Shown here: piece by piece, positions 17,469 through 49,278 of the stretch
How the letters are laid out: the number at the start of each line of letters is the position of its first letter
How positions within the stretch are numbered: position 1 is the stretch's first letter
IMG/VR virus record: IMGVR_UViG_3300027969_000084
Coordinates: 1-64,000 of that record
Direction: 5' to 3' (one strand)
Length of the DNA: 64,000 nucleotides
DNA from: a virus
Notes under the pieces: model-generated
Told to the model about the DNA's origin: nothing
Database searches by the model: none
The model's input: only the letters and a program-made list of their open reading frames with translations
Position numbers and translations under genes: made by a program

Positions 17469-17712
17469 AGAAGAACAAATTACCTATGTTAAGGAAGATT
17501 GGATGAAAATCCGATATATCGAGAATCCATCTGAGGCTGTTCAATTAGCTTCAGTTACTGAACATCCATTTTCTATTCAATTTATTAAAAACCCATCCGA
17601 AGAAATTAAATTAGCTGCTGTTACAAAAAGCGGATGGGTTATTACATGTATCAAGAATCCATCGGATAATTTAAGGATACTTGCTGAACTATCTAAGCTA
17701 CCTATTCAATAA
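17461..17712 (+). CDS. DUF4116-like NPSE-repeat protein 10, 83 aa
   Basis: Shortest member, two to three repeats between MTEEEQITYVKEDWMKIRYI and NPSDNLRILAELSKLPIQ. Last gene of the contiguous block; a terminator follows. Confidence 0.85.
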   Translation: MTEEEQITYVKEDWMKIRYIENPSEAVQLASVTEHPFSIQFIKNPSEEIKLAAVTKSGWVITCIKNPSDNLRILAELSKLPIQ

Positions 17713-17721
17713 AAAGTTTTC

Positions 17722-17760
17722 GAGGATGAAACCGTTTTCCATATTTCACCCTCTATTTTT
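17722..17760 (+). terminator. Intrinsic terminator
   Basis: Stem GAGGATGAAA (17722-17731) with TTTCACCCTC (17744-17753), followed by TATTTTTT; ends the DUF4116-like operon facing the convergent glycosyltransferase gene. Confidence 0.7.
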
Positions 17761-18689: not shown

Positions 18690-18924
18690 TCTTTCCTCGC
18701 TCTAATTCTGGATACCAAGCACTCTTAGTTTTTGGTGTTAATTTTTGGCCAATCAATTTAGAAAAAGCATCTAAATCTTCTTGATTGTCGAAACGAAAAA
18801 TAATCTTAGCGAATGGTGGTTTATTTTCCTGAACAAACTCAGGCATTTCTACCCATTCTTCGGTTGATGATGTATCATCCTGATTATCATCAAGATCACC
18901 CAACCAATCGTCCAATGATGACAT
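18661..18924 (-). CDS. Small protein co-transcribed with TAGT, 87 aa
   Basis: Acidic N-terminus (MSSLDDWLGDLDDNQDDTSS), then KIIFRFDNQEDLDAFSKLIG and TPKTKSAWYPELERG. This strand-helix plus TKSxWYP pattern occurs in many phages as a small protein of unknown function. The FRFDNQEDLDAF portion also resembles the C-terminal strand-helix of the FKLRWG family. It shares a transcript with the glycosyltransferase. Confidence 0.7.
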   Translation of the reverse strand: MSSLDDWLGDLDDNQDDTSSTEEWVEMPEFVQENKPPFAKIIFRFDNQEDLDAFSKLIGQKLTPKTKSAWYPELERGKNAAKRWIQE

Positions 18925-18964
18925 AACTATCTCCAGATAATTTTAAATATGTTTCACAATATCG

Positions 18965-18983
18965 GACACGATATAATCGTGTC
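18965..18983. promoter_or_regulatory. Inverted-repeat operator candidate
   Basis: Perfect inverted repeat GACACGAT-ATA-ATCGTGTC. It overlaps the -35 (TTGACA, minus strand 18980-18985) and spacer of the leftward promoter for 18924, and lies between two divergent units, as expected of a repressor site. Confidence 0.6.
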
Positions 18984-19009
18984 AATAATAAAATGGGTTA
19001 TGGTTGATG

Positions 19010-19037
19010 TTGCATTTTTTGATAGTTTTGCTATACT
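19010..19037 (+). promoter_or_regulatory. Promoter, TTGCAT-N16-TATACT
   Basis: Rightward sigma70-like boxes about 35 bp before the gene at 19073. Confidence 0.6.
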
Positions 19038-19072
19038 GAAAAAGATTTATACATGGAGAAATAGCAGGCAAT

Positions 19073-19351
19073 ATGGATGAAGATATCGAAATCATTACTC
19101 TTGATGATCAGCAGACGGAACGTCTTGTTGTAATTGGTGTTGACTGGGACGATAATCTCGACCGTCCTGCACACAATGCTATATTTACTACTGAAGTTGA
19201 CGAATGGTGTTTAGAAAATCTTTTAAAATCAACACGTATTCGTTGTGGCAGGCATTTTTATAGTTTACAGCCGTATGATTATCATTATGAGATTGATGTA
19301 GAGTTTGGTTCTGAAGATGATTTGTTTTTGTTTACCTTGAGGTGGCTTTGA
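19073..19351 (+). CDS. FKLRWG-family small protein, 92 aa
   Basis: Ends VEFGSEDDLFLFTLRWL, the family's terminal strand-helix. Acidic N-terminus (MDEDIEIITLDDQQTERLVV) and a central helix DEWCLENLLKSTRIRCGRHF. Coupled to the next member by a TGATG overlap. Confidence 0.75.
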   Translation: MDEDIEIITLDDQQTERLVVIGVDWDDNLDRPAHNAIFTTEVDEWCLENLLKSTRIRCGRHFYSLQPYDYHYEIDVEFGSEDDLFLFTLRWL

Positions 19352-19674
19352 TGGAAGATTTTGAATCAAATCCGGTCGAGGCACAGACTGAAGCTGAAAT
19401 AAAATATTTTACAATGTTGCTTTCTCGGCTTGATTTTCTTAAGAATCAGGATCGATGGTTAAATATTCTCTCAAAAGATAGAGAATCTGATTTGTATGAT
19501 AATGTTGTGGAAATTAACATCAAAGAATCGAATGCGGTTGTAGAAAATATCAATTGGTGGCTGCGCGATAATGGTGGGAATTGGGGCTGCGGTTTTAATT
19601 TCTCAAATTTTACAATTTCTTTCAATTTTGAAGATAATAATACTGCTATTCATTTTAAGCTAAATTGGGGCTGA
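19351..19674 (+). CDS. FKLRWG-family small protein, 107 aa
   Basis: Starts MEDFESNPVEAQTEAEIKYF and ends FNFEDNNTAIHFKLNWG. Has the VENINWWLRDNGGNWGCGF segment, which corresponds to the W-x-x-x-NLxGxW motif of other members. A TGATG overlap joins it to the previous gene. Confidence 0.75.
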   Translation: MEDFESNPVEAQTEAEIKYFTMLLSRLDFLKNQDRWLNILSKDRESDLYDNVVEINIKESNAVVENINWWLRDNGGNWGCGFNFSNFTISFNFEDNNTAIHFKLNWG

Positions 19675-19701
19675 TTGTGTTTAAGCAATGGATATTTGGT
19701 A

Positions 19702-20217
19702 ATGACTGAAGAAGAAAACCTTGAACGTGTAAAGAAAAATGGATGGGAAATTCAATATATTGAAAATCCATCAGAAGAAGTACAACTAGCTGCGGTTAAA
19801 CAACGTGGATGGGCAATTCGATATATTAAGAATCCATCAGAAGCCGTTCAATTGGCTTCAGTTCAACAAAATGGATATGCTATTAAATGGCTTAAGAATC
19901 CATCCGAAGAATTACAAATGATAGCGGTTCTACAATTCTCTGGTTTGACAATCGAAAATATTGAGAATCCAAGTGAAGAAGTTCAATTAACTGCGGCCAA
20001 ACAAAATGGGGCAGTTATTGAATGGATTAAAAATCCGAGTGAAGAGGTCCAGTTGGCTGCTGTTACTAATAATGGCTGGTTCGTTAAATATATTAATAAC
20101 CCGTCTGAAGCAGTTCAATTAGCTGCGGTTACTGAAAATGGTTGGGCCATTAAATATATTGATAATCCTACTTACCGAGTCAAGGTACTTGCCGAATTAT
20201 GCAAGGATCATGACTGA
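19702..20217 (+). CDS. DUF4116-like NPSE-repeat protein 11, 171 aa
   Basis: Seven repeats between MTEEENLERVKKNGWEIQYI and NPTYRVKVLAELCKDHD. The chosen ATG matches the family cap; the frame extends 27 nt upstream. Separated from the main block by the glycosyltransferase operon and two FKLRWG genes; its 3' end overlaps the convergent gene by 10 nt. Confidence 0.85.
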   Translation: MTEEENLERVKKNGWEIQYIENPSEEVQLAAVKQRGWAIRYIKNPSEAVQLASVQQNGYAIKWLKNPSEELQMIAVLQFSGLTIENIENPSEEVQLTAAKQNGAVIEWIKNPSEEVQLAAVTNNGWFVKYINNPSEAVQLAAVTENGWAIKYIDNPTYRVKVLAELCKDHD

Positions 20218-20690
20218 TTAGTTACATACATGCTCCAGAAAGGCCCTTTAATAGGGTCATCTTCTCTTTCAGGGAATAAATATTCATTCAATCTCGCAAC
20301 CCAATCAGGAGTTAGGTGATGATTGCGAAGTCCTCCGGTAGGGAAGATATGAACTTCTTGGTGTTGGGTGCCTTCAAGTTGCTGAAGAGCTACCATACGA
20401 TTCCTGCCTTCATGCCCTGTAATTCTTGCTGGACGAGACAAATCACCTTCTTCCCATTCATCTGGGATAGTAACGAGTAAGAATGGTGCTGCTAGATGTC
20501 CACCTTCTTGTACATGTTGTATCATGCTCTTGACACTAATCTGTTCGCCTAATGGTGCGGCCAACTTAAGGAAAGTATATGGTTTCATTCTGACGCGAAG
20601 ACCCTTGTAGTCAACATTGCGATTATCAGCCACTGCGCCCCAACCGTTTTCATTGTCCATTTGATGTTCGAAGATTTCGTGCGCTCGCAT
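20208..20690 (-). CDS. ParB/Srx-like protein with leader, 160 aa
   Basis: Begins MRAHEIFEHQMDN, a capsid-targeting-like leader. The body contains RVRMKPYTFLKLAAPLGEQI and RITGHEGRNRMVALQQLEGT, the GHEGRxR box of ParB/sulfiredoxin-fold phage proteins, then HQEVHIFPTGGLR. A perfect TATAAATA on the minus strand (20717-20724) suggests late expression. Catalytic activity unproven; a virion-associated role is inferred from the leader and promoter. Confidence 0.6.
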   Translation of the reverse strand: MRAHEIFEHQMDNENGWGAVADNRNVDYKGLRVRMKPYTFLKLAAPLGEQISVKSMIQHVQEGGHLAAPFLLVTIPDEWEEGDLSRPARITGHEGRNRMVALQQLEGTQHQEVHIFPTGGLRNHHLTPDWVARLNEYLFPEREDDPIKGPFWSMYVTNQS

Positions 20691-20716
20691 TTATTATTCT
20701 CGTTTTGATTGTATAC

Positions 20717-20724
20717 TATTTATA
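20717..20724 (-). promoter_or_regulatory. T4-type late promoter TATAAATA
   Basis: Exact T4 late-promoter octamer 26 bp upstream of the ATG at 20690. Confidence 0.65.
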
Positions 20725-20746
20725 CGCTTGATTTTTTAACCAGATT

Positions 20747-20929
20747 ATGATATTATTTAATTACGATATGGCGGCGAGGGCAGAGGAAAATCGTAACTTC
20801 ATCGTTGGACAGACTGCTGAAATTTTATGCGATGTGATCACGCAGAACCAAGATGGTACATATTCGTTGCGTTTCCCACGCTTTGTACGCTTTAGAGATG
20901 ACAAGGAGAACCAGAATGACTCAATATAG
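20747..20929 (+). CDS. Hypothetical protein, 60 aa
   Basis: MILFNYDMAARAEENRNFIV at the N-terminus, then a beta-like NQDGTYSLRFPRFVRFRDDK segment. No ribosome site is obvious; the internal ATG at 20768 is an alternative start. Overlaps the next gene by 14 nt. No family recognised. Confidence 0.5.
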   Translation: MILFNYDMAARAEENRNFIVGQTAEILCDVITQNQDGTYSLRFPRFVRFRDDKENQNDSI

Positions 20930-21164
20930 AATCAAAAAGTTAGGCCCAAAACTTTACGAAGTTCAAAAGAAAGTACTTTTGTATTGGGGTGATGCTTTTA
21001 GTACCATGACGGGTGTGGCGAACATGAGGCGGTTAGAGAATAGACAGTTTGACTCCTATCATGCAGCAAGATCATATTTAAAAAACTATCTAGAAAAGGG
21101 TATGAATGTAAAGAAGAACGTTCCAGCATATTTTTATCCACCCTTTCCCGATAACGAACCATAA
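20916..21164 (+). CDS. Hypothetical protein, 82 aa
   Basis: Starts MTQYRIKKLGPKLYEVQKKV after AAGGAG at 7 nt, which excludes the longer reading. Basic; contains FDSYHAARSYLKNYLEKGMN and ends YFYPPFPDNEP. No family recognised. TAATG overlap with the membrane protein downstream. Confidence 0.7.
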   Translation: MTQYRIKKLGPKLYEVQKKVLLYWGDAFSTMTGVANMRRLENRQFDSYHAARSYLKNYLEKGMNVKKNVPAYFYPPFPDNEP

Positions 21165-21472
21165 TGAACATTAAACTTAAAGCAGCATTGTACACCATTA
21201 TTCCATACCTCGGTACAGCGATATGGCTGTTTTCATTGGCAACTTGGTATGAACCAACACTGTTATTCACTCTGTTTTTTCTTTGGTTTGTCGCACTACC
21301 ATTCGCTATTTACAATCTCGTATACCTTAATCTAAAAGGTAAGCAGAATAGAGCAGATGACCAACAACGGATGAAAGATTTTATAGCCGAGAATAAAAAA
21401 GCAAGTGACAGGGTACAACAAACGGTTAACGCCATGCTAGACAGGCATCGTGACCGTTCGCGCAGGTCATAA
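21164..21472 (+). CDS. Two-helix membrane protein, 102 aa
   Basis: Two hydrophobic spans (ALYTIIPYLGTAIWLFSLAT and LLFTLFFLWFVALPFAIYNL), then a basic coiled-coil-like tail (RMKDFIAENKKASDRVQQTV). Likely an inner-membrane protein with a cytoplasmic tail. No lysis-cassette context (no endolysin nearby), so a holin role is not supported. Confidence 0.65.
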   Translation: MNIKLKAALYTIIPYLGTAIWLFSLATWYEPTLLFTLFFLWFVALPFAIYNLVYLNLKGKQNRADDQQRMKDFIAENKKASDRVQQTVNAMLDRHRDRSRRS

Positions 21473-21498
21473 ATTATTACCAATTGGGATTTTTAAAT

Positions 21499-21867
21499 AT
21501 GAATGATCGCAATGACGACGGGCGTCTTAAGTTCGTGGGTTATAATGGGCATTATTCTAGTTATGATATTTGGGGGCAGACGATCCGTTCCGGCGAGGAG
21601 CATCTAATTCACCCATCTTTTGCTAAATTGTATATTCAAGATGATAAACAAATTAGTTTATATACTAAAGAATGGAGGGTCTCCGTAGGAGCCGATGATA
21701 CTATAACAATCTTCAAAACCGAAGATGGACCCAATGGTGCTAAAGAAACTGAATTGGTTGTTAATGCCTTGCGGAATCCATTGGATGAAAGAAACCGATT
21801 GGCTATTAAAATCATGGACTGCGACGATGATACTTTGATGCGCTTGAAGTTGTTCTTAGGGGAATAA
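21499..21867 (+). CDS. Hypothetical protein, paralogue of next gene, 122 aa
   Basis: Starts MNDRNDDGRLKFVGYNGHYS. Its C-terminus (NPLDERNRLAIKIMDCDDDT, LMRLKLFLGE) aligns with the next protein's DLEDERSRLALKVLKADEET ending. Both endings also resemble the terminal F-K-L motif of the FKLRWG family. The beta-rich first half (DIWGQTIRSGEEHLI) matches the same position in the paralogue. Unknown function. Confidence 0.7.
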   Translation: MNDRNDDGRLKFVGYNGHYSSYDIWGQTIRSGEEHLIHPSFAKLYIQDDKQISLYTKEWRVSVGADDTITIFKTEDGPNGAKETELVVNALRNPLDERNRLAIKIMDCDDDTLMRLKLFLGE

Positions 21868-21910
21868 ATTATGAAACTTTCCACACACGCTAACATGAAA
21901 GAGTTTTAAA

Positions 21911-22237
21911 ATGTCTCATATCACCAAAATAGGTAATTATAAGTATAGCTTGTGGGGCAATGATTCCAATAAAAGCTTATTTGTTAATGAACATTTTTGC
22001 GTAATAAACATTGGTGGAGATAATGAATGGGACATCGAGTTTATGCAAGATGGTTCAGATTTTAGCATTCATAGAACTACTTTCACTAAAAATAAATCTT
22101 TGGCTGATATTAATGAAGACATTTCTTTTTTTACTAATGCCATTAAGGATTTAGAGGATGAACGCTCTCGTCTTGCCTTGAAAGTGTTAAAAGCCGATGA
22201 AGAAACATTGTTTCGCATGAAGTTATTTTTCGAGTAA
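21911..22237 (+). CDS. Hypothetical protein, paralogue of previous gene, 108 aa
   Basis: Starts MSHITKIGNYKYSLWGNDSN and ends TLFRMKLFFE. Shares its overall plan with 21499-21867: a beta-rich first half, an acidic DERxRLAxK helix and a terminal hydrophobic strand. Probable tandem duplication. Confidence 0.7.
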   Translation: MSHITKIGNYKYSLWGNDSNKSLFVNEHFCVINIGGDNEWDIEFMQDGSDFSIHRTTFTKNKSLADINEDISFFTNAIKDLEDERSRLALKVLKADEETLFRMKLFFE

Positions 22238-22257
22238 ATTATGCAGAACGATTTGCC

Positions 22258-22578
22258 ATGAATATTTTTGATAACTTACCGTCTTATATCGGTGGGGATG
22301 TTGCCTCTCGTGCAATATATCGCGTTTATGACAAAAAATGTATGCCCGATCTTGTTTATAAGAATATTCAAATTTACCAAAACGATTGGTTGAAAAAGAA
22401 CTTGCCATATAGTTTTGGCGTTGATGATGCCATGTATTTAAACTTTCCTGATGAAGAATTGCTACCGTGGATTATTGATAATTTGCGAGGTGCTTGGCAT
22501 GCTAGAAAATCTCCGTATGGCTATATAAGATTTGAAGATAAGAGCGATGCTGCATTATTTAAATTGCGATGGTTTTGA
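22258..22578 (+). CDS. FKLRWG-family small protein, 106 aa
   Basis: Typical member: LPWIIDNLRGAWHARKSPYG, then YIRFEDKSDAALFKLRWF at the end. TGATG overlap with the next gene. Confidence 0.8.
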   Translation: MNIFDNLPSYIGGDVASRAIYRVYDKKCMPDLVYKNIQIYQNDWLKKNLPYSFGVDDAMYLNFPDEELLPWIIDNLRGAWHARKSPYGYIRFEDKSDAALFKLRWF

Positions 22579-22862
22579 TGATTACATTCGTTATTGGAAC
22601 TTCTAGTGAACGGGCGAGTGATATTTTTAATCAACGATTTGCTATTGATCTCAATCCTAATGTAAAATCAAAACGAACTTCTGTTGTGTTTTACAATGCC
22701 ATGGCTTCTATTATTGGCGATTTTGACATTACTGTTCCAAAAAATAATAAGTATTATCCCTTATTTTGTTTTGGTAGCAAGAGTTTTGATAATGACGCAG
22801 ACGCCATAGCATTTAAATTGAAGTTTAGTGAATATATCATTGATGAGATAATTCATGACTAG
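22578..22862 (+). CDS. FKLRWG-family small protein, 94 aa
   Basis: Starts MITFVIGTSSERASDIFNQR. The family motif SFDNDADAIAFKLKFSEY is not terminal here: 12 further residues (IIDEIIHD region) follow, an exception within the family. Confidence 0.7.
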   Translation: MITFVIGTSSERASDIFNQRFAIDLNPNVKSKRTSVVFYNAMASIIGDFDITVPKNNKYYPLFCFGSKSFDNDADAIAFKLKFSEYIIDEIIHD

Positions 22863-22889
22863 TTTAACGAAAAATGAACTCATACAACA

Positions 22890-23105
22890 ATGAACCATAT
22901 ATTAGACATAGGCGTTAATGATTACCATACTTGGATCAATTTCGCCAAAAGCCTCGCATGTTTTAATGATTCGGACGATAAACTTAATAAGAAGCTGGCC
23001 GAATATAATGGAAAAGTTTATATAGATAATCGCAACTATAAATATAATTTTGTTGAATTTAAGTCAGAAGCTGATTTGGTTTATTTTAAGTTGGTTTTTG
23101 GCTGA
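22890..23105 (+). CDS. FKLRWG-family small protein, 71 aa
   Basis: Short member. MNHILDIGVNDYHTWINFAK opens and VEFKSEADLVYFKLVFG closes. The central helix and G-x-W element are reduced. Confidence 0.7.
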   Translation: MNHILDIGVNDYHTWINFAKSLACFNDSDDKLNKKLAEYNGKVYIDNRNYKYNFVEFKSEADLVYFKLVFG

Positions 23106-23126
23106 GATTCCTATATGATATAGGTC

Positions 23127-23393
23127 ATGGCTGTCATATTTAAAAATATCACTCATTTATTAGTATCTCGCATTAGTAGCGATAAAGTTCTCTATGGATG
23201 CCAACCATTTGTCAATTTATCCCATTGGGTTTGTTTAAATCAGGAAATTGAAGAATGGATGGATATGAATATGAAAAGAAAGTCAGGAATTAAAGTAAAA
23301 TATTTTACGACTAATAAAACTATTAAACCTCGTTCATTAATAAGTTTTGAGAATGAAAACGATGCTGTCTTATTCAAGATGAGATGGTTATGA
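23127..23393 (+). CDS. FKLRWG-family small protein, 88 aa
   Basis: Ends ISFENENDAVLFKMRWL. The helix NQEIEEWMDMNMKRKSGIKV corresponds to the family's central helix. ATGA overlap with the next gene. Confidence 0.75.
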   Translation: MAVIFKNITHLLVSRISSDKVLYGCQPFVNLSHWVCLNQEIEEWMDMNMKRKSGIKVKYFTTNKTIKPRSLISFENENDAVLFKMRWL

Positions 23394-23806
23394 AATTATC
23401 CAATCGATCTATTGCCAAGGTTATCATGTTTGCATTTCTGAACAAAGATGAAACCCTTCCTAATTATACACGAATGGATACTCGCGATATTTCGCAAGTG
23501 GTTAGTTTTCATTGTTTGAGTTTTACTAATCTGACTTGGAAACAGAAGAAAAATCTTGTACCAGTAGGAACTACATTAGATCGTGTTACTAGATTTCTTT
23601 TAGCTAATGGATGGTTGAGATATGAACAGGCCGCAATATATTATTTAAGCGATGGTCTTATTGAGGCGGTAAAATCTGGAGCCATAAGTTCGGTTGATGA
23701 TTTATTTTGTGACGATCATATCATTGCGGTACATTGCATGATGTTTAATATTAAACTAAATCCAGCGTTTTCTGATGATGATTCTAAATTTGTGTTGCAT
23801 CATTGA
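23390..23806 (+). CDS. Hypothetical helical protein, 138 aa
   Basis: Starts MKLSNRSIAKVIMFAFLNKD at an ATGA overlap. Mostly helical, no FKLRWG ending. Contains TTLDRVTRFLLANGWLRYEQ and DGLIEAVKSGAISSVDDLFC. No family recognised; the single odd gene inside a run of FKLRWG members. Confidence 0.65.
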   Translation: MKLSNRSIAKVIMFAFLNKDETLPNYTRMDTRDISQVVSFHCLSFTNLTWKQKKNLVPVGTTLDRVTRFLLANGWLRYEQAAIYYLSDGLIEAVKSGAISSVDDLFCDDHIIAVHCMMFNIKLNPAFSDDDSKFVLHH

Positions 23807-23821
23807 TAATTGGAGATAATC

Positions 23822-24121
23822 ATGGCAGAGATAAGCGCGTTTGATCTTTTAGCTAATATGGAACTGGCAAATAACCTCAAATATTTGGAGAAGTTGTTTT
23901 CAAAACCTCCTGTACGCTATTCGAACTATGATCATACGGTTGACATTTTAATTCAGAATAAGTTGTATAATAGTTTAGAAAACCATTTAGTGTGGCTTGA
24001 TACGAATAGTCTTGGGTCATGGGATTATAATTTTACTGGATTTTATTCTGATACAACCTCAATCTCTTTTTATTTTGAGAATGAGCTTGCGTCTATTCAT
24101 TTCAAGATGGCATTCGGTTAA
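23822..24121 (+). CDS. FKLRWG-family small protein, 99 aa
   Basis: Starts MAEISAFDLLANMELANNLK after GGAG and ends FYFENELASIHFKMAFG. Its N-terminal helix resembles that of 19351-19674. Confidence 0.75.
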   Translation: MAEISAFDLLANMELANNLKYLEKLFSKPPVRYSNYDHTVDILIQNKLYNSLENHLVWLDTNSLGSWDYNFTGFYSDTTSISFYFENELASIHFKMAFG

Positions 24122-24132
24122 GGAATCTCTTG

Positions 24133-24582
24133 GTGACTGAAGAACAAAAACTCGATCTTGTTAAAAATAGTGGATATGCACTAGCTTATATAAAGAACCC
24201 ATCTTTAGAGGTGCAATGGACTGCTATTCAACGTGATGGAAGCGCTATAGCATATGTCTATAACCCATCAGAAGATTTAAAGCTTGCGGCAGTTAAACAA
24301 AATGGTATTGCTATTCGCCATATAAAGAATCCATCCGAAGAAATGAAAAATATTGCGGTTCTTTCTGTAGGAGGAGCAATAAAATATATTGAAAATCCAT
24401 CAGAAGAATTGCAAATGGTGTCTGTATCACAAAATGGCTGGGCAATTCAGTATATTAAGAATCCATCTGAAGCTGTTCAAATAGCTGCGGTTATGAACGA
24501 TGCATGGGCAATTCAATACATCAGAAATCCATCAGAACAAGTTAAGATACTTGCTGAATTATGCAAGGTTTATGATAAATGA
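24133..24582 (+). CDS. DUF4116-like NPSE-repeat protein 12, 149 aa
   Basis: Six repeats from a GTG start (VTEEQKLDLVKNSGYALAYI) to the cap NPSEQVKILAELCKVYDK. Repeats are more diverged at the N-terminus (NPSLEVQWTAIQRDGSAIAY) than in the main block. Confidence 0.85.
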   Translation: MTEEQKLDLVKNSGYALAYIKNPSLEVQWTAIQRDGSAIAYVYNPSEDLKLAAVKQNGIAIRHIKNPSEEMKNIAVLSVGGAIKYIENPSEELQMVSVSQNGWAIQYIKNPSEAVQIAAVMNDAWAIQYIRNPSEQVKILAELCKVYDK

Positions 24583-24902
24583 CTGAAGATATTTTAGAGA
24601 ATGCAAGAGTTATTCTCAAGATATATGATTTTGATGCAATAATTGAAGACCGCTCTGATCAATTCAATGAACGGTGGGGATGGGATATTGATGACAATTA
24701 TGTATTGATTAAAAATCCAAAATATATTAAACCATATGTTCTTTTGTACGGTCACGTTAGATTTGTTAAAGATCGGCGGCTTTATAAAAAAAACAGTTAT
24801 TCTTATAAAAAAAGTTATTCTAATCAGCAATATTACTCATCTCCCGAAAAATTATTGGAAGGTGTTAATCGGCTTGTTCTAAAGAAAAGTATGATTGATT
24901 AA
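24579..24902 (+). CDS. Hypothetical basic protein, 107 aa
   Basis: Begins MTEDILENARVILKIYDFDA through an ATGA overlap with the NPSE gene. The body has no repeats; a Tyr/Ser/Lys-rich stretch (YKKNSYSYKKSYSNQQYYSS) precedes the C-terminal helix. Not recognised. Confidence 0.65.
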   Translation: MTEDILENARVILKIYDFDAIIEDRSDQFNERWGWDIDDNYVLIKNPKYIKPYVLLYGHVRFVKDRRLYKKNSYSYKKSYSNQQYYSSPEKLLEGVNRLVLKKSMID

Positions 24903-24922
24903 TTTTATAATTGTGTTATTCT
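24895..24922 (+). promoter_or_regulatory. Promoter, TTGATT-N16-TATTCT
   Basis: Sigma70-like boxes 23 bp before the largest NPSE gene. Confidence 0.55.
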
Positions 24923-24944
24923 CAATAGGATTATGGAGAACGCA

Positions 24945-25973
24945 ATGACCGAAGAAGAACAACTGTTATCTGTTCAAGAAAATGGATTTAAGATAGGGTA
25001 TATCGAGAATCCATCCGAAGCTGTGCAAATGGCTGCGGTCACCCAGCACGGGCTATCCATCCAATATATTGAAAGCCCATCAGAAGCAGTTCAAATAGCG
25101 GCGGTTATTCAAAACAATTTGGCAATTTATTACCTCAATAATCCTAGCGATAAAGTGAAAGTGTTATCCGTCATGTATAGCAGTGAGCCAATTGACGGTG
25201 AATGGTTGATTCGTAATTTTGCTTTGGATATAATTAATATATTAAGCGAAGAAACTCAATTGCATATTGTATCTACTGCGAATTTTAGTACTATTAAACG
25301 ACTATTTTCGAATATCAAGAACCCATCCGAAGATGTTCAAATAGCTGCTATTACAAAAAGTTCATATGTAATCGAGCATATCGGAAATCCATCCGAAGCG
25401 GTTCAATTGGCTGCTGTTACTACTGTTGGAGCGGCAATTGCATATATTATAAATCCATCAGAAGCGGTTCAATTGGTGGCTGTTCAACAAGATGGGCGGG
25501 CAATTCAGTTTATCAAAAACCCATCTGAGGCTGTTCAGTTAGCCGCTGTCACCAAAAATGGTTGGGCAATTGAACATATTGAAAGCCCATCAGAAGCAGT
25601 TAAAATAGCTGCGGTTAGTCAAGATGCATGGGCAATTGGCTGGCGGATTACGAATCCATCTGAAGCAGTTAAATTAGCTGCGGTTACTCAAAATGGGCGG
25701 GTAATTCAGTTTATCAAAAACCCATCAGAAGCAGTTCAATTAGCTGCGGTTAACCAACATGGTTTGGTAATTGAATATATAATATCCAAAGGAATTACCC
25801 CAAGTGAAGCTGTTCAATTAGCTGCGGTTAGTCAAGATGGAAGTTCAATTGAGTATATTAAAAATCCATCCGACGCGGTTCAGTTGGCATCTGGGAATGG
25901 AGTTCTTTTTATTGCACCATCTGCGGCAGTTAAGCTAGCATCACTCTGCGCATACAATGAGAAAGTAGTATGA
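24945..25973 (+). CDS. DUF4116-like NPSE-repeat protein 13 (largest), 342 aa
   Basis: About thirteen repeats. The array is interrupted near residues 80-125 by a non-repeat segment (SSEPIDGEWLIRNFALDIIN), and two repeats carry insertions (GWRITNPSEA; YIISKGITPSEA). The C-terminal cap is weak (APSAAVKLASLCAYNEKVV). It starts after GGAG with its own promoter, unlike the coupled members. Confidence 0.85.
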   Translation: MTEEEQLLSVQENGFKIGYIENPSEAVQMAAVTQHGLSIQYIESPSEAVQIAAVIQNNLAIYYLNNPSDKVKVLSVMYSSEPIDGEWLIRNFALDIINILSEETQLHIVSTANFSTIKRLFSNIKNPSEDVQIAAITKSSYVIEHIGNPSEAVQLAAVTTVGAAIAYIINPSEAVQLVAVQQDGRAIQFIKNPSEAVQLAAVTKNGWAIEHIESPSEAVKIAAVSQDAWAIGWRITNPSEAVKLAAVTQNGRVIQFIKNPSEAVQLAAVNQHGLVIEYIISKGITPSEAVQLAAVSQDGSSIEYIKNPSDAVQLASGNGVLFIAPSAAVKLASLCAYNEKVV

Positions 25974-41694: not shown

Positions 41695-43536
41695 TTACCC
41701 TCTCCATTTGTTCACGATAGGGTAGCGACGATCACGTCCATGAATCTTGCTGGTGATCTTTACGCCGGGAGCAGCTTGGCGGCGCTTATATTCCGCATTA
41801 TCTACCAATTGACGAATCTTCATCACCACTGAACAATCTATGTTAATTCGCATAGCAATTTCATCTACGCTCAATTCATCTTCGATCATACCCTTTAGAA
41901 GGCTATCAAGAACAGGGTAAGGGGGCAACGATTGCTCATCGAATTGGTCTGGACGAAGTTCGGCGGAAGGTGGCTTTACAATGATAGCTTCAGGAACAAC
42001 CTCATCATTTGTACCAAAAAACCCATAGGATTTAATCTGAGAAAGATCGAGATTATTTCTCCAGCGACACAGTTCCCACACGGTAGTCTTATACAAATCC
42101 TTAATAGGATTAAAACCACCCGACATGTCGCCATATAATGTCGCATAACCAACACTAACTTCTGACTTATTTCCCGTTGTCAGGAGAAGATGATATTCTT
42201 GATTGGATATTGCCATGAGAATATTACCACGCGCTCTCGCTTGAATATTTTCATCTGCAATTCCCGTCAGCTTGCGAGGGTTTAGATTTTCATTACCACC
42301 GTTATAAACATTATGTTCTGGATAATTCCCGTGATCCGTAGTATTTGCGTATGCTTGCCGCAAAGCTTCCACAACCGGTTCAATAGAAATTGTACGAACC
42401 TTGGCACGAAGACGATCAGAACCAGCCGCTGCATCATTCAAAGAATGCTGGCTGCTATATTTTGAAGGCAACCGAACTAGATGTACATTATCCGGACCAA
42501 CCGCATCGGCTGCAATAGCCGCAACCAATCCAGAATCAACACCTCCGGAATATCCAATAACTACTGACTTGAAACCCTGCTTGTGCATATAGTCGCGAGT
42601 ACCAAGCACACATGCTTGATAGATTTCTGCAAAACTAGTTGGTTCTACTGTCGGATAGTTATCAACAGTTACTAATGGCGTAGGTTGCTTAATCCATTGG
42701 GAATGTTCACCATCATCAGAAATATGAATGATAGCTTCTCCCGCAGAATTAGTATGACGATTTTCAGAAGAAATGTTTACATCTACATAGAAGATATCTT
42801 CTTGGAAGGATGGGAACTCTTTTAGATTTCCGTCATAAAGGAATGATCCACCATCGAACACCAACTCATCTTGTCCACCAACCATATTCACATATAGGAA
42901 TGGTAGACCAGTTTCATTGATGCGATCTTTGATTACATTATGCCGAACAATATTCTTTCCAACTTCAAATGGCGAACCATTGATACTGATCAAAAATTGA
43001 GCACCACGATCCATCATTTCTTTACTGACACGCGGGAACCAACAATCCTCACAGATCATTACTCCAATCGTATGGCCGCGCCATGTGATAGGATATGGCC
43101 GCTCTCCAGAAATGAACACACGCTTTTCGTCAAACACGCCATAATTTGGCAACTCAGTTTTATAAATTAGTTGAATTGGTAAAAGATATTGTCCATCTTG
43201 CGGAGAATATGGCGGAACTTGTGGATCAACCACGTATGCCGCATTACGGATGCCTCTCGGAACTCGACGCGGTGTACCATAGATAATCGTAGGGCCAGTT
43301 TTCCTTGCGCAAATAGTTGTGTTGATAAACTTAACTTTTTCAGCAACCGCAGACATAAAGCTTTCGCGAAGAACAAGGTCTTCTAGCGGATAACCAGTAA
43401 GAGCACATTCTGGGAATACTACCAGTTCAGCGCCTTCGGTTGCGGCTTTATCATATGCAGTAATAATTCGGGCGGCATTACCATCAAGGTCTCCAACAAT
43501 AGGATTAAATTGCACAATGGCGATTTTAGTGGTCAT
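41695..43536 (-). CDS. nadE: Glutamine-dependent NAD+ synthetase
   Basis: Final step of the pathway: nicotinate adenine dinucleotide + ATP + glutamine to NAD+. The N-terminal nitrilase-type amidase shows the Glu-Lys-Cys triad: E43 in VVFPECALTGYP, K126 in LIYKTELPNYG and C162 in VMICEDCWFP. The C-terminal synthetase has the SGGVDS loop at 330-335. At 613 aa it is full length for this type. A TAAATA motif and AGGATC ribosome site precede the ATG, so it may also have its own late promoter. Most bacterial hosts already carry nadE; phage copies are rare. Confidence 0.95.
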   Translation of the reverse strand: MTTKIAIVQFNPIVGDLDGNAARIITAYDKAATEGAELVVFPECALTGYPLEDLVLRESFMSAVAEKVKFINTTICARKTGPTIIYGTPRRVPRGIRNAAYVVDPQVPPYSPQDGQYLLPIQLIYKTELPNYGVFDEKRVFISGERPYPITWRGHTIGVMICEDCWFPRVSKEMMDRGAQFLISINGSPFEVGKNIVRHNVIKDRINETGLPFLYVNMVGGQDELVFDGGSFLYDGNLKEFPSFQEDIFYVDVNISSENRHTNSAGEAIIHISDDGEHSQWIKQPTPLVTVDNYPTVEPTSFAEIYQACVLGTRDYMHKQGFKSVVIGYSGGVDSGLVAAIAADAVGPDNVHLVRLPSKYSSQHSLNDAAAGSDRLRAKVRTISIEPVVEALRQAYANTTDHGNYPEHNVYNGGNENLNPRKLTGIADENIQARARGNILMAISNQEYHLLLTTGNKSEVSVGYATLYGDMSGGFNPIKDLYKTTVWELCRWRNNLDLSQIKSYGFFGTNDEVVPEAIIVKPPSAELRPDQFDEQSLPPYPVLDSLLKGMIEDELSVDEIAMRINIDCSVVMKIRQLVDNAEYKRRQAAPGVKITSKIHGRDRRYPIVNKWRG

Positions 43537-43545
43537 TTTTGATCC

Positions 43546-43551
43546 TATTTA
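43546..43551 (-). promoter_or_regulatory. TAAATA motif upstream of nadE
   Basis: Minus-strand TAAATA 9 nt before the nadE ATG, in the 12-nt gap after the nicotinamidase gene. It might allow separate late expression. Confidence 0.35.
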
Positions 43552-44184
43552 AATATTAGTGCTATAAATTACAGTAACATTACATTCCTGAAAATCAAGC
43601 TCAATTTGGTTAACCGAACCGTTAAGATCGATTGCACGGGTCAAATCCTTGATGACAACGGATTCGAATCCACACTTGATTGCATCAATTGCAGAAAAAC
43701 CAACACAAAAATCATAAGCAAGACCTACAAAGAAGCAGCGCTTGATACCACGCGCAGTCAAATAACCGCGAAGACCAGTATCGGTATTCTTATCATTTTC
43801 TCTGAACGCAGAATATGAATCCACGTCAGATTTGGTTCCTTTGCGGATAATAGCTTGCGCCTTAGTTACCGTATCGGAAATATTCTTATGGAACTCAGAA
43901 CCATATGTATTTTGAATGCAATGATCTGGCCACAAAACTTGATCGCCATATGCCACCTTCGCCAAACCGAAAGCTTCACCACCGTCATGATTTGACGCAA
44001 ATGAGATTTGATTTTGAGGATGCCAATCTTGCGTCACCACAACATTATTGAACTTTTTTGCAAACTCATTAATTGGTAACATAATTTCATCACCGCCAGA
44101 AACGGCTAGAGCGCCATTGGGGCAGAAATCATTTTGTGGATCGATGACGATAAGAACGTCGGTATCATTAATTTGAATATTCAT
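43549..44184 (-). CDS. pncA: Nicotinamidase
   Basis: Isochorismatase-superfamily hydrolase converting nicotinamide to nicotinate and ammonia. Catalytic triad D15 (VIDPQNDF), K115 (IIRKGTKS) and C160 (GLAYDFCVGFSAID); metal site D53-x-H55...H66 (QDWHPQNQISFASNHD). Length 211 aa is normal for PncA. It supplies nicotinate to the pncB product encoded 12 nt upstream in the operon. Confidence 0.93.
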   Translation of the reverse strand: MNIQINDTDVLIVIDPQNDFCPNGALAVSGGDEIMLPINEFAKKFNNVVVTQDWHPQNQISFASNHDGGEAFGLAKVAYGDQVLWPDHCIQNTYGSEFHKNISDTVTKAQAIIRKGTKSDVDSYSAFRENDKNTDTGLRGYLTARGIKRCFFVGLAYDFCVGFSAIDAIKCGFESVVIKDLTRAIDLNGSVNQIELDFQECNVTVIYSTNI

Positions 44185-44196
44185 TTGTATTTCTCC

Positions 44197-45531
44197 TTAA
44201 ACTTTTACAGCGTTTGATTGAACACCATCTGTGCCGAACACAGAAATATAGCGTTCTACTTCTTCTTTAGACCCCGAAGCTTTCGAAATATTATCCGATA
44301 GCTTTACGGAAGACTTTCCTTCAACGGATGAAACCTTACATACGAGGCTGATAGGCTTCATATAATCAGGATCATTTGGCGCACAGCCAATAAAATCACA
44401 TGTAAACATGGTCCCCCAACCATATGCATCACGAACACGACCATGGAAGTGATTGTAGATATCAACAATGTCTTCACCTTGTGGTTCGAAACCATCAATC
44501 CGAACATCTAAACCATCACTGAACAAAACTAGCTTTTCAGCAGGATTTTTCATGTGATAATTCCAATAACAAATTAGTTCTTCTCCACCAGGAATGGGTT
44601 TCTTTGAGTCTGGCCGGAAGCCAGTCCAATCAGCCAGCCAACTTGGTGCATCGCGTAGGAATTGCGTTGTTCCAAAGGTATCAGGAAGAGCCACTAGAAG
44701 AGCGCCGCGATAGTCATCCTGCCACTGTTGAAGAACCTTATATTGAGATTGCTTCAACTCCGCATCATCCTTTGATAACGCAGCAAGAACCATTGGTAGC
44801 TCATGGGCGTTTGTACCCTTTGCGTCAATGCCATGCATCATGGCGATGTAGCAGTTAGAAGTACCAACAAACTTTTCACCAAGAACTTCGCGAGCAGTCA
44901 ATACACAATGCTCTTGCCACAGGAAGCTATGACGGCGGCGAGTACCAAAGTCAGACAATGCTAGTTCATCGAGAGTGTTTAGACGCTCAAGCTTGGCATA
45001 AAGCTTAACCTTTGCACGAGCGTACATGATGTCCAATTGCGAACGATTCATCTTTTGCATCTTGGCACGATAGCGCATCTCATTAATGATGGTTAGTGCA
45101 TAGATTTCGAACAAACTCGTCTCAAGCCACTTGCCATTAAAGGTAAGAGCGATCTGCCCTTCTTTGACTTCGATAGTGTAATCAGCCAGTTTAAAACTAC
45201 TACGTAGATAATCGAGATATCCCTTACCGAAAATACCAGATTGCCCATAGAAGGTTTGACCAGCTAGCCAGATCAATTCATTTTGTTGAAACTTCAATGT
45301 TTGAACATGATCTAGTTGTTCACGCAATTCATTGATATCAATCTCATATCCCAACAAGACTGTCTTAGTTCGGTTAGTGACCGAAAAAGAAACTTCAGTA
45401 TTGGGATACTTGCGCCAAATAAATTGATGCATGAGCAACTTATAGAAGTCTGTATCTAAAAGACTGCGAACGATATAATCGCGAGGAAAACTATGATCCC
45501 ACGCACGCTTTGCGAAATTAGTGTTTTCCAT
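44197..45531 (-). CDS. pncB: Nicotinate phosphoribosyltransferase
   Basis: Makes nicotinate mononucleotide from nicotinate and PRPP. PncB signatures: SLLDTDFYKLLMHQ (23-36), SDFGTRRRHSFLWQEH (193-208), VGTSNCYIAMMHGIDAKGTN and the catalytic His in GTNAHE (H243). LVLFSDGLDVRIDGF and GTMFTCDF mark the phosphate site. The R-x-DS segment reads FRPDSKKPIPGG, whereas bacterial PncB has LRHDSGDP, an oddity in the PRPP region. It lies 4 nt from the adenylyltransferase gene. Confidence 0.93.
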   Translation of the reverse strand: MENTNFAKRAWDHSFPRDYIVRSLLDTDFYKLLMHQFIWRKYPNTEVSFSVTNRTKTVLLGYEIDINELREQLDHVQTLKFQQNELIWLAGQTFYGQSGIFGKGYLDYLRSSFKLADYTIEVKEGQIALTFNGKWLETSLFEIYALTIINEMRYRAKMQKMNRSQLDIMYARAKVKLYAKLERLNTLDELALSDFGTRRRHSFLWQEHCVLTAREVLGEKFVGTSNCYIAMMHGIDAKGTNAHELPMVLAALSKDDAELKQSQYKVLQQWQDDYRGALLVALPDTFGTTQFLRDAPSWLADWTGFRPDSKKPIPGGEELICYWNYHMKNPAEKLVLFSDGLDVRIDGFEPQGEDIVDIYNHFHGRVRDAYGWGTMFTCDFIGCAPNDPDYMKPISLVCKVSSVEGKSSVKLSDNISKASGSKEEVERYISVFGTDGVQSNAVKV

Positions 45532-45535
45532 AATA

Positions 45536-46774
45536 TTAATCCTTAATCATTTGTTTGAGCGTCTGAATCATTGAAAAATGGTCCTCGAACATCTGGTCAC
45601 GCTTAATTTGGTCCAAGCGAACCCACTTAGCCCGCTTAGCATCATCGGCTGCACGGACCTTGGGAAGCGCCAGAGCGTCCTTAATTCGTTTCTTATACGA
45701 TGCATCAGATTCATCCTTAAGGCGGTCAGGAGCCTTCGGTTGAAGGTGGAACAGCGTTGCGTGAGTGATCGTGCGACCACGCATTGAACGGTGTGGGGCA
45801 TCGAAAACTTTAGTAGCAACAATGCTTCCCTTAAGAACGCTGTCGGGAACCTTCAGCTTGGTTTCTTCACGAAGTTCTCGAATGCAAGCCTGATCGATGT
45901 ATTCTTCCGGATCAAGATGCCCACCAGGAAGTGCCCAAAGACCCATGCCTGGGCGAGCTTTTCTTTGAATAAGAAGAACGTGTCCTGCCTGAACAACCAT
46001 ATTGTCAACAGTTACGAACTTTGGTGGGAAAAGTTGAACTTCTCGGCCCCCAATCATGACTTGATACTTTTCACCACCAACTTCAACTTCTACCATTCGG
46101 CCACCAACACGAACCTTGGCATTATATGGTTCAAGATATTTCGTCATGAAATCCCATTCATCTACCATGTTCTGATATTCGGGATTATTTTCGCGGAACT
46201 CTTTGAGGAAATTGTAAACGCCACGTGGAACGAGATTGATCAAGTCAGTAGTTATGAACTTATCAACTAAACTTTTATCTGCATCAAAATAATATTTACG
46301 AATATTTTTAGCAGATATGCTTTTGTGATTATCTACGTCAATGGATTCCCATTCGGGGAACTCTTTTAGATAAAAACTAGAATTATCTTTTGAATGACCA
46401 ACAAGCGCCGTTGTAACGGTCGTGATCTTATAATGATTCATGATTTTTTCAGAAACCTCAGCGGCAAGGCGGCGGATTTCTTCGGACCAAAGTGTCATGT
46501 TATTATAGTCTTCGCAATGGCGAATATGAACTCTCGCCTTTTGCTCGTCTGTTAGGGAGGCGAGAATCATTTGCTCGCGTTCTTCCGAAGTAAATGGAAG
46601 ATAATCAACGCGACGGGCTTCACCCGCAGAGCCTGTTACTATAAGAATATTTTGAGAATATTGTAGAGCCGTATTAATTACGGCTAAGTGCCCATCGTGA
46701 AAACACTGGAATCTTCCGACGAATACGGAAAGATCATACATATGCGCGACCGCAGCCGCTTCATTATTTGTCAT
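45536..46774 (-). CDS. nadM: Bifunctional NMN/NaMN adenylyltransferase-Nudix hydrolase
   Basis: N-terminal nucleotidyltransferase with GRFQCFHDGH (20-29, an HxGH-type motif with Cys at the first His) and ISAKNIR (153-159). The C-terminal Nudix box is GGHLDPEEYIDQACIRELREE (284-304). The first domain forms NaAD or NAD+ from the mononucleotide; the second, by homology to the Francisella/Synechocystis fusion enzymes, cleaves ADP-ribose to AMP and ribose 5-phosphate. First gene of the four-gene NAD+ operon; start 46774 follows TAGGA. Confidence 0.92.
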   Translation of the reverse strand: MTNNEAAAVAHMYDLSVFVGRFQCFHDGHLAVINTALQYSQNILIVTGSAGEARRVDYLPFTSEEREQMILASLTDEQKARVHIRHCEDYNNMTLWSEEIRRLAAEVSEKIMNHYKITTVTTALVGHSKDNSSFYLKEFPEWESIDVDNHKSISAKNIRKYYFDADKSLVDKFITTDLINLVPRGVYNFLKEFRENNPEYQNMVDEWDFMTKYLEPYNAKVRVGGRMVEVEVGGEKYQVMIGGREVQLFPPKFVTVDNMVVQAGHVLLIQRKARPGMGLWALPGGHLDPEEYIDQACIRELREETKLKVPDSVLKGSIVATKVFDAPHRSMRGRTITHATLFHLQPKAPDRLKDESDASYKKRIKDALALPKVRAADDAKRAKWVRLDQIKRDQMFEDHFSMIQTLKQMIKD

Positions 46775-46828
46775 AGTAAATCCTACCATGTTATGACCGA
46801 TCTGGGTCTATTCCCTGAACGTTAAATA

Positions 46829-46940: not shown

Positions 46941-47498
46941 TTATTCAGCAACGAAAGCTTCCACTTCGGTTTCCACCGAAGCAACCACCTTGGCCTTGCG
47001 AGCACGAGGAGCCTTGGCTTCCACTTCGACAACGGTTTCCACCGCTTCAAAAGCTTCAACTGCGTCAACCTTGCGCTTACGGCCACCACCGATGCCCAGA
47101 CCCGATGCCTTGGCAAGTTCCGAACGCTTTGCAGCGTAGTTCGGAGCAACCATAGGATAGTCAGCAGCCAGACCCCAACGGGCGCGGTACTCATCAGGGG
47201 TCAGGTTAAAGGAAGTGCGCAGATGGCGCTTCAGCGACTTCATCTTCTTACCATCTTCGAGGCAAACGATGTAGTCAGCAGTGATGGACTTCTTGATCGA
47301 AACAGCCGGAACCAGTTCAGGCTTTTCCACAACAACTTCGGGCTGCGAAGGGTTGAGAATGGTAGCAAGCGACGTATGAATTGAAGAAATCACAGAACCA
47401 ATGTCATTTTGTGAAACAGAATTGTTGCTCAGATAAGCAGCAGCCAGTTCGATGGTGGCAGTGATATGGGTCTCGGTAGTTTCGTTAAATTGCTGCAT
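46941..47498 (-). CDS. MucR/Ros-family transcriptional regulator, 185 aa
   Basis: Residues 10-45 (TATIELAAAYLSNNSVSQND) match the MucR oligomerisation region. PAVSIKKSITADYIVCLEDG, KKMKSLKRHLRTSFNLTPDE, YRARWGLAADYPMVAPNYAA match the Ros/MucR DNA-binding domain. The position usually holding the last zinc-binding His (HLRTH) is Ser here. An alanine/valine-rich tail with PRARKAK, not usual in the family, follows. MucR proteins silence AT-rich genes and repress CtrA-activated promoters in alphaproteobacteria. Strong ribosome site (AAGGAG) and promoter. Confidence 0.9.
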   Translation of the reverse strand: MQQFNETTETHITATIELAAAYLSNNSVSQNDIGSVISSIHTSLATILNPSQPEVVVEKPELVPAVSIKKSITADYIVCLEDGKKMKSLKRHLRTSFNLTPDEYRARWGLAADYPMVAPNYAAKRSELAKASGLGIGGGRKRKVDAVEAFEAVETVVEVEAKAPRARKAKVVASVETEVEAFVAE

Positions 47499-47687: not shown

Positions 47688-47716
47688 TTGACAAGAATAA
47701 TTTAATACATTATAAT
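47688..47716 (+). promoter_or_regulatory. Perfect consensus promoter TTGACA-N17-TATAAT
   Basis: Exact sigma70 consensus boxes with optimal spacing, 35 bp before the gene at 47751; probably expressed immediately on infection. Confidence 0.85.
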
Positions 47717-47750: not shown

Positions 47751-48080
47751 ATGATTAATCTTATCAAGAAGTTAGTATTAGAAATTGGAATGCTATTAGA
47801 ATTCCTATTTTGGAATATCTGGAAAATGCGGGCGGCTTTGCCCGCAGGTATAATTTCTTTCCTGTTTACGCTACATGCTGCGAAGAGCGGAGACATTGCG
47901 AATATCGCTGCTGCATTTGTTGTTTGTTTTCTCGCATGGATATGTGCGTATGTCGAAGGATGGGATACACGAGTTGCTTTTAAGATATATCATCGGAATA
48001 AAACAAAAAAGATGATGGATCGTTTTAGAAAAGAATTTGGAGACGAAGTTGTTGATGCCGCCCTTAATCAAAAGGATTAG
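47751..48080 (+). CDS. Membrane protein, 109 aa
   Basis: Starts MINLIKKLVLEIGMLLEFLF. Two hydrophobic segments (MRAALPAGIISFLFTLHAAK; ANIAAAFVVCFLAWICAYVE), then a basic tail (YHRNKTKKMMDRFRKEF). Inner-membrane protein of unknown role, first gene behind the consensus promoter, followed after 9 nt by the 2H-like gene. Confidence 0.65.
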   Translation: MINLIKKLVLEIGMLLEFLFWNIWKMRAALPAGIISFLFTLHAAKSGDIANIAAAFVVCFLAWICAYVEGWDTRVAFKIYHRNKTKKMMDRFRKEFGDEVVDAALNQKD

Positions 48081-48089
48081 GAGAATAAT

Positions 48090-48461
48090 ATGTATGTAGG
48101 TTGGTTGTTACCCGCGTCTGATCGCGAAAAATTAATGATGTATATAAAGCCAGCATATCCAGATGTTTTGGCACATCATGTTACATTGCAGTTTGGCGTC
48201 CCTGCCGATTATCCTCTGCCCGAAGAAACGCAGGGTTTGGTCGTTGGTATTGTAGATGATGGAAAAGGGGTTCAAGCCGTTATTGTTAAGATTGACGGAA
48301 CAACCAAACGCCCTGATGGATCAACATATCATATTACTTGGTCGATAGATAAAGACGCTGGCCGCAAACCCGTTGACAGCAACACAGTAATCGCTGATAT
48401 TGGTTGGCAGAAATTAATGTACGAGGTTCCAATCAAGCTGGAACCCATGATAGCAAAATAG
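48090..48461 (+). CDS. 2H phosphoesterase-like protein, 123 aa
   Basis: Two HxT motifs characterise the 2H phosphoesterase fold: H30-V-T32 (AHHVTLQFGVP) and H81-I-T83 (STYHITWSID), separated by a strand-rich segment (VVGIVDDGKGVQAVIVKIDG). 2H enzymes cleave 2',3'- or 3',5'-phosphodiester bonds; phage members include T4 Acb1, which destroys CBASS cyclic nucleotides. The motif spacing (51 residues) is shorter than in LigT-type enzymes. Placement behind a consensus early promoter fits an anti-defence role (inference). Confidence 0.65.
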   Translation: MYVGWLLPASDREKLMMYIKPAYPDVLAHHVTLQFGVPADYPLPEETQGLVVGIVDDGKGVQAVIVKIDGTTKRPDGSTYHITWSIDKDAGRKPVDSNTVIADIGWQKLMYEVPIKLEPMIAK

Positions 48462-48471
48462 GATCGATAAA

Positions 48472-49278
48472 ATGGGCTGTTGGAACGAAACTTGCGGATT
48501 TTCTAATCTGCCAATTACCGATGGTATGCCAGTTCGAGCAATGTTCATAAAGCGAGTGAAGGAGAGCCGATATAAAGGTGCTGCCTTATTTTATGCTTTT
48601 GATCTCTTCCATCCAGCGACCATTATGATCAAATCGACATATGACGATTATGGTTGGCTCAATGTCACGGCAGCGGAACTTGTTCCTCTTATCGTTAATG
48701 TAGAAAATATGGGTCTGGATATTTCTTTTCGTAATGAAGAAAATGGTTTTAAACCAGATGATTTACCAGAAGATACCTATCTTTGGATGATTAGAGAAGA
48801 TGTGTATCAAATGCTGCGAGATATTCCTCTTGATCATTGGGGCGATAAACCAAAGTTCGTTGGTGAATATGTTGATAGATTGCGAGTGGATTATGCCAAA
48901 CTAGCAACTGATATTAAAGCGGAACTGGTCACAGAAACTGAAAAGATGGGCATTTGGTCCTTTACTCTTCGGGATAGAATGGACCGTTTATTTGGAAGAA
49001 ACGATACGGCAATTAGGTGGCCGTTGCGAGAATTTTTATTACCAACGAGTGGACTTGATATTCCGCCAGATAATGTGGATGAACTGGTGGATATTCATCA
49101 AATATTTTCTGCGATGAATGCTCTCAGAAAAAACTTAGTTCCGACTATTGGTGGCGGTTCGCAAGATTATAATGAAGGCGGTTATAGGGTCATCGCAAAT
49201 TTTATGAACAATGCGATGGACGAATATCGAAAGCACTATGATCATTGGGAAGATGAAGATGAAGAAGTTGAATCCTGA
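48472..49278 (+). CDS. Conserved phage protein (MGCWNxTCGxSxLPI type), 268 aa
   Basis: Begins MGCWNETCGFSNLPITDGMP, a signature shared by a widespread phage family of unknown function. PVRAMFIKRV forms a beta strand and STYDDYGWLN gives a DDYG turn; the C-terminus is acidic (HWEDEDEEVES). The N-terminal Cys pair and Trp may bind metal or nucleotide; unknown. Same transcript as the 2H-like gene. Confidence 0.75.
   Translation: MGCWNETCGFSNLPITDGMPVRAMFIKRVKESRYKGAALFYAFDLFHPATIMIKSTYDDYGWLNVTAAELVPLIVNVENMGLDISFRNEENGFKPDDLPEDTYLWMIREDVYQMLRDIPLDHWGDKPKFVGEYVDRLRVDYAKLATDIKAELVTETEKMGIWSFTLRDRMDRLFGRNDTAIRWPLREFLLPTSGLDIPPDNVDELVDIHQIFSAMNALRKNLVPTIGGGSQDYNEGGYRVIANFMNNAMDEYRKHYDHWEDEDEEVES

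Follow-up and report, generated by a model that had tools for sequence, protein, structure and literature searches.

Background

CNPase converts 2',3'-cyclic nucleotides to 2'-phosphates through the residues H230, T232, H309 and T311; its substrate is bound by Tyr168, Phe235 and Val321, and the helix that follows its second catalytic motif has been described as absent from other 2H phosphoesterases (PMC4643303). The phage 2H protein Acb1 carries a C-terminal lid at residues 145-152 (PMC9117128). For jumbo phages, passages of two surveys (PMC7824862, PMC9503650) propose a role of 2H enzymes in the clearing of cyclic RNA ends, and processing of the product of KptA by a 2H enzyme together with a macro domain; these passages on 2H, KptA and macro-domain networks neither name the PHROG 36523 family nor describe a pairing of 2H with NT5C. 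The gene described here encodes a 123-residue member of that family and lies in the virus record IMGVR_UViG_3300027969_000084, a fragment of 69,695 bases of which the first 64,000 nucleotides (the window) were analysed. An original prediction had read the protein as a 2H phosphoesterase comparable with T4 Acb1, directed against CBASS signals and expressed early from a consensus promoter. Our analysis confirmed the observation and partly supported its interpretation: it is fairly probable that the protein is a stand-alone 2H enzyme of the type of CNPase and of the cyclic phosphodiesterase (CPD) domain of Trl1, opening cyclic phosphates for a partner phosphatase. A substrate linked to ADP-ribose or nicotinamide adenine dinucleotide (NAD), or NAD-coupled tRNA-end repair, is the leading guess.

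A minimal 2H protein of jumbo phages and alphaproteobacteria

The open reading frame is real; it starts with ATG, and AGGAG (48079-48083), resembling a ribosome-binding site, stands six bases upstream. Both predicted HxT motifs were present. In an alignment with relatives from jumbo-phage contigs and alphaproteobacteria, H30, T32, H81, T83 and S85 were invariant in 52 of 52 sequences, and R74 and N98 had one exception each. Part of the relatives had been fetched with a DNA pattern demanding the second motif, so that the invariance of this motif is partly built in and that of the first is not. Judged from the alignment, the HxT pair exceeds chance expectation. Y2 (42 of 52 relatives), F35 (33 of 52) and V95 (41 of 52) may be equivalent to Tyr168, Phe235 and Val321 of CNPase, a correspondence proposed on the basis of alignment end-points and residue spacing rather than of residue-level superposition.

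The window protein matched PHROGs family 36523, annotated as of unknown function (E 5.5e-30), and had no credible match in Pfam, NCBIfam or PADLOC. Three of 33 relatives weakly matched the Pfam profile tRNA_lig_CPD (best E 0.004). The displayed scores were below the cut-off, and the window protein matched neither this profile nor that of CNPase; the protein is therefore said here to work like CNPase and the Trl1 CPD, and is not filed in those Pfam families. Matches of seven members to Big_7 (best E 0.0015) were dismissed as partial and short in proteins with a 2H fold, as were isolated matches below the cut-off to pP_pnuc_2 and T4_MRH. Family profiles run with HMMER against PDB sequences returned nothing credible, the ribosomal proteins matched being attributed to chance.

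The family is patchily spread over bacteria and phages. Relatives were found in the jumbo phages Salicola phage SCTP-2, Sinorhizobium phage Phosso and Agrobacterium phage Atu_ph07, and in many IMG/VR contigs of up to 578 kb. Others, up to 54% identical, are carried on plasmids or chromids of Azospirillum, Sphingobium, Sphingomonas, Novosphingobium and one Alteromonas, and alphaproteobacterial genomes with relatives include Devosia, Roseicella and Sphingomicrobium. Of 289 genomes sampled from the class to which the Paracraurococcus carrier belongs, 5 encode a family member. A search of viral contigs with the single protein of locus L004 found no relative. (Fetched 2H loci are given as L numbers and carrier records as G numbers.)

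Several relatives have settings of their own. In Phosso and Atu_ph07 (L004, L005) the 2H gene occupies a conserved site between topoisomerase genes and genes for a ClpX-like ATPase and IF3. On the Sphingobium cloacae plasmid pSCLO_2 (L008, 5501-6369) it overlaps a cupin gene and is located between LigD and an SOS/ImuA mutasome region. In an alphaproteobacterial metagenome-assembled genome (L017, 3929-5446) the 2H domain is joined to a C-terminal region of about 370 residues that has no Pfam match; a stretch in it that resembled a Nudix box by eye was not confirmed as Nudix by Pfam.

The predicted fold is closest to CNPase and the Trl1 CPD

An AlphaFold2 model of the window protein, built from a 24-sequence input, had a mean predicted local distance difference test score of 97.5 and a 2H fold, and CNPase, Trl1 CPD, Acb1 and LigT were all recovered as structural matches. 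Among solved structures, Foldseek gave the top ranks to 6u05, a kinase-CPD structure of fungal tRNA ligase, and to CNPase, at modest E values (0.011 at best). On DALI-like realignment mouse CNPase gave Z 11.3 over 120 of the 123 residues and the phosphodiesterase domain of 6u05 gave Z 10.7; the best structures of this type together spanned Z 10.7-11.3, with root-mean-square deviations of 2.8-2.9 A over 118-120 residues. All other 2H enzymes scored 6.9 or less. Phage Acb1 reached Z 6.9 (4.0 A, 102 residues), and the group of LigT, plant CPDase and 2'-5' RNA-ligase-like enzymes, which are longer proteins sharing the 2H fold and the HxT pair, reached Z 5.4-6.0, LigT itself giving 5.4. The best viral predicted structures were long proteins of giant viruses, a 771-residue protein of Cafeteria roenbergensis virus and a 765-residue marseillevirus protein named 'RNA ligase'.

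With the catalytic domain of CNPase, its best fold match, the window protein shares the two HxT motifs, an aromatic residue five positions after the histidine and a helix (96-104 in the model) that immediately follows the second motif. Identity is 15-18%; the CNPase domain has about 206 residues, and the window protein, which is of phage and bacterial occurrence, has no fused domain like polynucleotide kinase (PNK). The fungal Trl1 CPD (PF08302; 6u05) is linked to it by the top Foldseek match and the weak profile matches of the relatives, whereas the window protein is stand-alone and minimal, with no kinase or ligase fusion. Motif invariance, fold and these profile matches together back the predicted identity as a 2H phosphoesterase.

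The comparison with Acb1 (7t26, 7t27) fared less well. Both are small phage proteins of the 2H superfamily, but the catalytic histidines are 69 residues apart in Acb1 and 51 in the window protein, homologues of which are common in bacteria. The model chain ends in a strand (118-122), apparently without a counterpart of the C-terminal lid that in Acb1 closes over the cyclic dinucleotide. Pfam searches with the family members gave no match to an Acb1-type family at E<=1, and the window protein had no such match in PHROGs, NCBIfam or PADLOC.

Two unrelated phosphatases adjoin the 2H gene in relatives

The gene next to the 2H gene in relatives is usually that of a phosphatase. With a small hidden Markov model built from the neighbours, about 17 distinct loci were found to encode an NT5C-like HAD protein directly next to the 2H gene; they come from phages (L027, L029, L031-L036, L039, L040, L044/L050, L049/L051, L053, L055) and from bacteria (Devosia, L012 and L015; Sphingomicrobium, L016). 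The pairs occur in either gene order, and their reading frames frequently touch or overlap. All 13 HAD proteins scanned matched Pfam NT5C (best E 6.5e-13), and the HAD profile matched mammalian 5'(3')-deoxyribonucleotidases (best E 1.3e-9).

In eight distinct jumbo-phage loci (L043, L047, L052, L074, L083, L084, L086, L087) the 2H gene instead has a macro domain just upstream, the profile of which matches ADP-ribose 1''-phosphate phosphatase (6lfu, E 1e-10) and TARG1. The single macro domain detected by Pfam search in the 457-kb record G297 is separated from the 2H gene by about 15 bases. Four of these loci (L083, L084, L086, L087) additionally carry an NT5C-like HAD gene 2-6 kb away.

The gene in the window and its NAD-related surroundings

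The nearest relative of the window protein is that of L073 (61% identity), followed by those of L043, L013/L014 and others. Read from the promoter (Table 1), a small membrane protein gene comes first in the presumed transcription unit, the 2H gene second and the MGCW gene third. The order is macro, 2H, MGCW in L043 and membrane protein, macro, 2H, MGxW in L074, and the genes flanking the 2H gene in the window are homologous to those of these loci: a homologue of the MGCW gene follows 2H in L043 (38% identity) and, by its N-terminus, in L074, and the membrane protein match is weak.

Table 1 Location of the 2H gene, its motifs and surrounding features in the window
Feature	Position	Strand	Basis or remark
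Predicted 2H phosphoesterase of CNPase/Trl1-CPD type, 123 residues	48090..48461	+	Open reading frame list, PHROG 36523 (function unknown), model, alignment
First catalytic motif, H30-V-T32	48177..48185	+	52/52 relatives
Second catalytic motif, H81-I-T83 (S85 invariant too)	48330..48338	+	52/52 relatives
PVDSN, residues 94-98, loop before helix 96-104	48369..48383	+	Probably at the CNPase beta5-alpha7 loop
Exact sigma-70 consensus promoter, TTGACA-17-TATAAT	47688..47716	+	Sequence
Small membrane protein, first gene of presumed unit	47751..48080	+	Weak homologue similarly placed in L074
MGCW... protein, conserved, downstream of 2H	48472..49278	+	N-terminus matches phrog_5960
Nicotinamide mononucleotide adenylyltransferase (NMNAT)-Nudix fusion	45536..46789	-	Context only; 37% homologue near 2H in L043
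NAD synthetase	41695-43536	-	Context only
Isochorismatase-family nicotinamidase-like protein	43549-44184	-	Context only
Nicotinate phosphoribosyltransferase	44197-45531	-	Context only

The predicted promoter is exact in sequence and is the sole exact copy in the 64 kb, none occurring in 100 dinucleotide shuffles. It lies, however, about 370 bp from the 2H gene with the membrane protein gene between them; an ATG at 47715 falls inside the -10 box, so that this gene most likely starts at 47751. An exact consensus promoter was found anywhere in just 10 of the 93 fetched 2H loci, the window (L006) being one of the ten, and is thus not a conserved trait of these loci. The promoter would permit the predicted immediate-early expression of the 2H gene but does not by itself demonstrate it. 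A ROS/MucR-type regulator is encoded at 46941-47498 (- strand; Pfam E 4.5e-46), and in L081 a similar MucR-like protein stands directly before the 2H gene.

The window, L043, L047, L052 and L001 all have genes related to NAD or ADP-ribose in the vicinity of the 2H gene. In the window they are NAD salvage genes on the opposite strand, 1-6 kb away; the set (41695-46789, - strand) resembles a complete Preiss-Handler route. An NMNAT-Nudix gene is close by in L043, NAMPT is encoded in L047 and L001, and an ADP-ribosylglycohydrolase gene lies beside 2H in L052. Around the 2H gene of L001 (1429-9419) are genes for NADAR, a protein looking like DUF4326, a PNK-like AAA_33 kinase and the tRNA guanylyltransferase Thg1, possibly a tRNA-repair island.

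Elsewhere in the window, 13980-25973 holds many tandem paralogues built of repeats resembling NPSEAVQLAAVTQNGWAIQYI; of these, one copy that was scanned matches DUF4116. A TET-associated glycosyltransferase (PF20691, E 4.8e-45) at 17760-18689 (- strand) suggests hypermodified DNA.

Discussion

The fold, catalytic motifs and gene pairings computed here point to a two-step reaction. A metal-free 2H enzyme acting through H30/T32 and H81/T83 would open a five-membered cyclic phosphate to a phosphomonoester, probably a 2'-phosphate as with CNPase. Candidate substrates are 2',3'-cyclic phosphates on RNA ends or nucleotides, or the 1'',2''-cyclic phosphate of ADP-ribose. A partner phosphatase would then strip the phosphate, this being the NT5C-like HAD protein in most relatives and the Poa1/TARG1-like macro domain in others; a HAD protein of the 5'(3')-nucleotidase kind would suit 2'-/3'-nucleotides or RNA ends, and a Poa1-like macro domain ADP-ribose 1''-phosphate. 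Since the window gene falls loosely in the macro- and NAD-associated part of the family, an ADP-ribose- or NAD-linked substrate, or NAD-coupled tRNA-end repair, is the leading guess for it.

Several observations weigh against this assignment. No phosphatase adjoins the 2H gene in many of the alphaproteobacterial members (Azospirillum, Roseicella), and Z scores speak to fold, not activity. The loose group joining the window protein to the macro-paired L043, L047, L052 and L074 has weak support (69/64); a tight grouping with L043 and L052 stood at 92/87 at first and lost strength once the alignment had grown by ten sequences. Within the window no HAD partner was detected, and the 69.7-kb record, itself a fragment, has no macro domain, KptA or T4-type RNA ligase.

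It is possible, at a tentative level, that the enzyme serves RNA end healing, opening 2',3'-cyclic phosphates on tRNAs cut by host ribonuclease toxins before resealing by a phage ligase, a role in line with that already proposed in parts of the surveys for jumbo-phage 2H enzymes generally (PMC7824862, PMC9503650). The nearest folds are a fungal tRNA ligase healing domain and CNPase, 7 of 16 carrier records encode a T4-type RNA ligase (PF09511), the three named jumbo phages all being among them, and L001 adds the PNK-like kinase and Thg1. These ligases are encoded away from the 2H gene, however, and the window's fragment has none; the NT5C-like partner resembles enzymes acting on mononucleotides, and several bacterial carriers lack adjoining repair genes.

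A pathway of the Cpd1-Poa1 type, in which the 2H enzyme and a macro-domain phosphatase process ADP-ribose 1'',2''-phosphate, is likewise a tentative possibility, slightly less probable than RNA end healing. The eight direct 2H-macro pairs, the match of the macro domain to Poa1-type phosphatase and the neighbouring NMNAT-Nudix, NAMPT, NADAR and ADP-ribosylglycohydrolase genes argue for it, as does KptA in two macro-paired genomes. KptA scored above the cut-off in 3 of 11 large carrier records of 300 kb or more (G297, G299, G308), but G307, G310 and six further large records lack it, as does the window's fragment, and the paired macro phosphatase of the eight relatives is missing from the window record. 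A linkage of KptA with the macro domain looked perfect in the first 16 records but was broken by added genomes, and is not claimed.

It is unlikely that the enzyme salvages free 2',3'-cyclic nucleotides released by breakdown of host RNA; in such a route the 2H enzyme would yield 2'-nucleoside monophosphates and the HAD protein nucleosides, feeding ribonucleotide reductase. The NT5C-like partner would suit this, and in several phages the pair is bordered by genes judged by eye to encode ribonucleotide reductase, glutaredoxin and dCMP deaminase, but the window has no nearby partner or reductase and the macro pairings would be left unexplained.

More broadly, the minimal CNPase-type family of jumbo phages and alphaproteobacteria might combine an opener with a swappable HAD or macro phosphatase, its NAD-linked group degrading a cyclic phosphate derived from NAD or ADP-ribose and made in the course of phage defence; we regard this extension as improbable. 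Least probable by far is the anti-CBASS nuclease like Acb1 of the original prediction, which has in its favour a shared superfamily and size class, a phage gene behind a strong promoter and the presence of Acb1 among the fold matches, but is at odds with a fold match far weaker than that of CNPase and Trl1, with the lack of an Acb1-type family match in Pfam, PHROGs, NCBIfam and PADLOC, with a chain that stops at residue 123 and has no evident tail corresponding to the lid, with the gene neighbourhood and with many homologues in bacterial genomes; the occurrence of relatives in bacteria and beside phosphatase genes suits clean-up of cyclic phosphates better than a phage-only anti-CBASS function.

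Conclusions

The family is an unnamed subfamily within the known 2H superfamily. Judged by a limited literature search, three things appear to be new: the CNPase-like character of this subfamily, its occurrence in bacteria, and the fact that its genes pair with either of two unrelated phosphatases. Through the analysis PHROG 36523, a family of the largest phages and of soil bacteria, gains a function class and substrates that can be tested, and the recurrent pairing of 2H and phosphatase genes predicts a concrete two-step reaction. A phage 2H gene close to a strong promoter need not be directed against CBASS. The branch resembles eukaryotic RNA-healing enzymes and bears on RNA repair by phages and on the recycling of NAD during infection.
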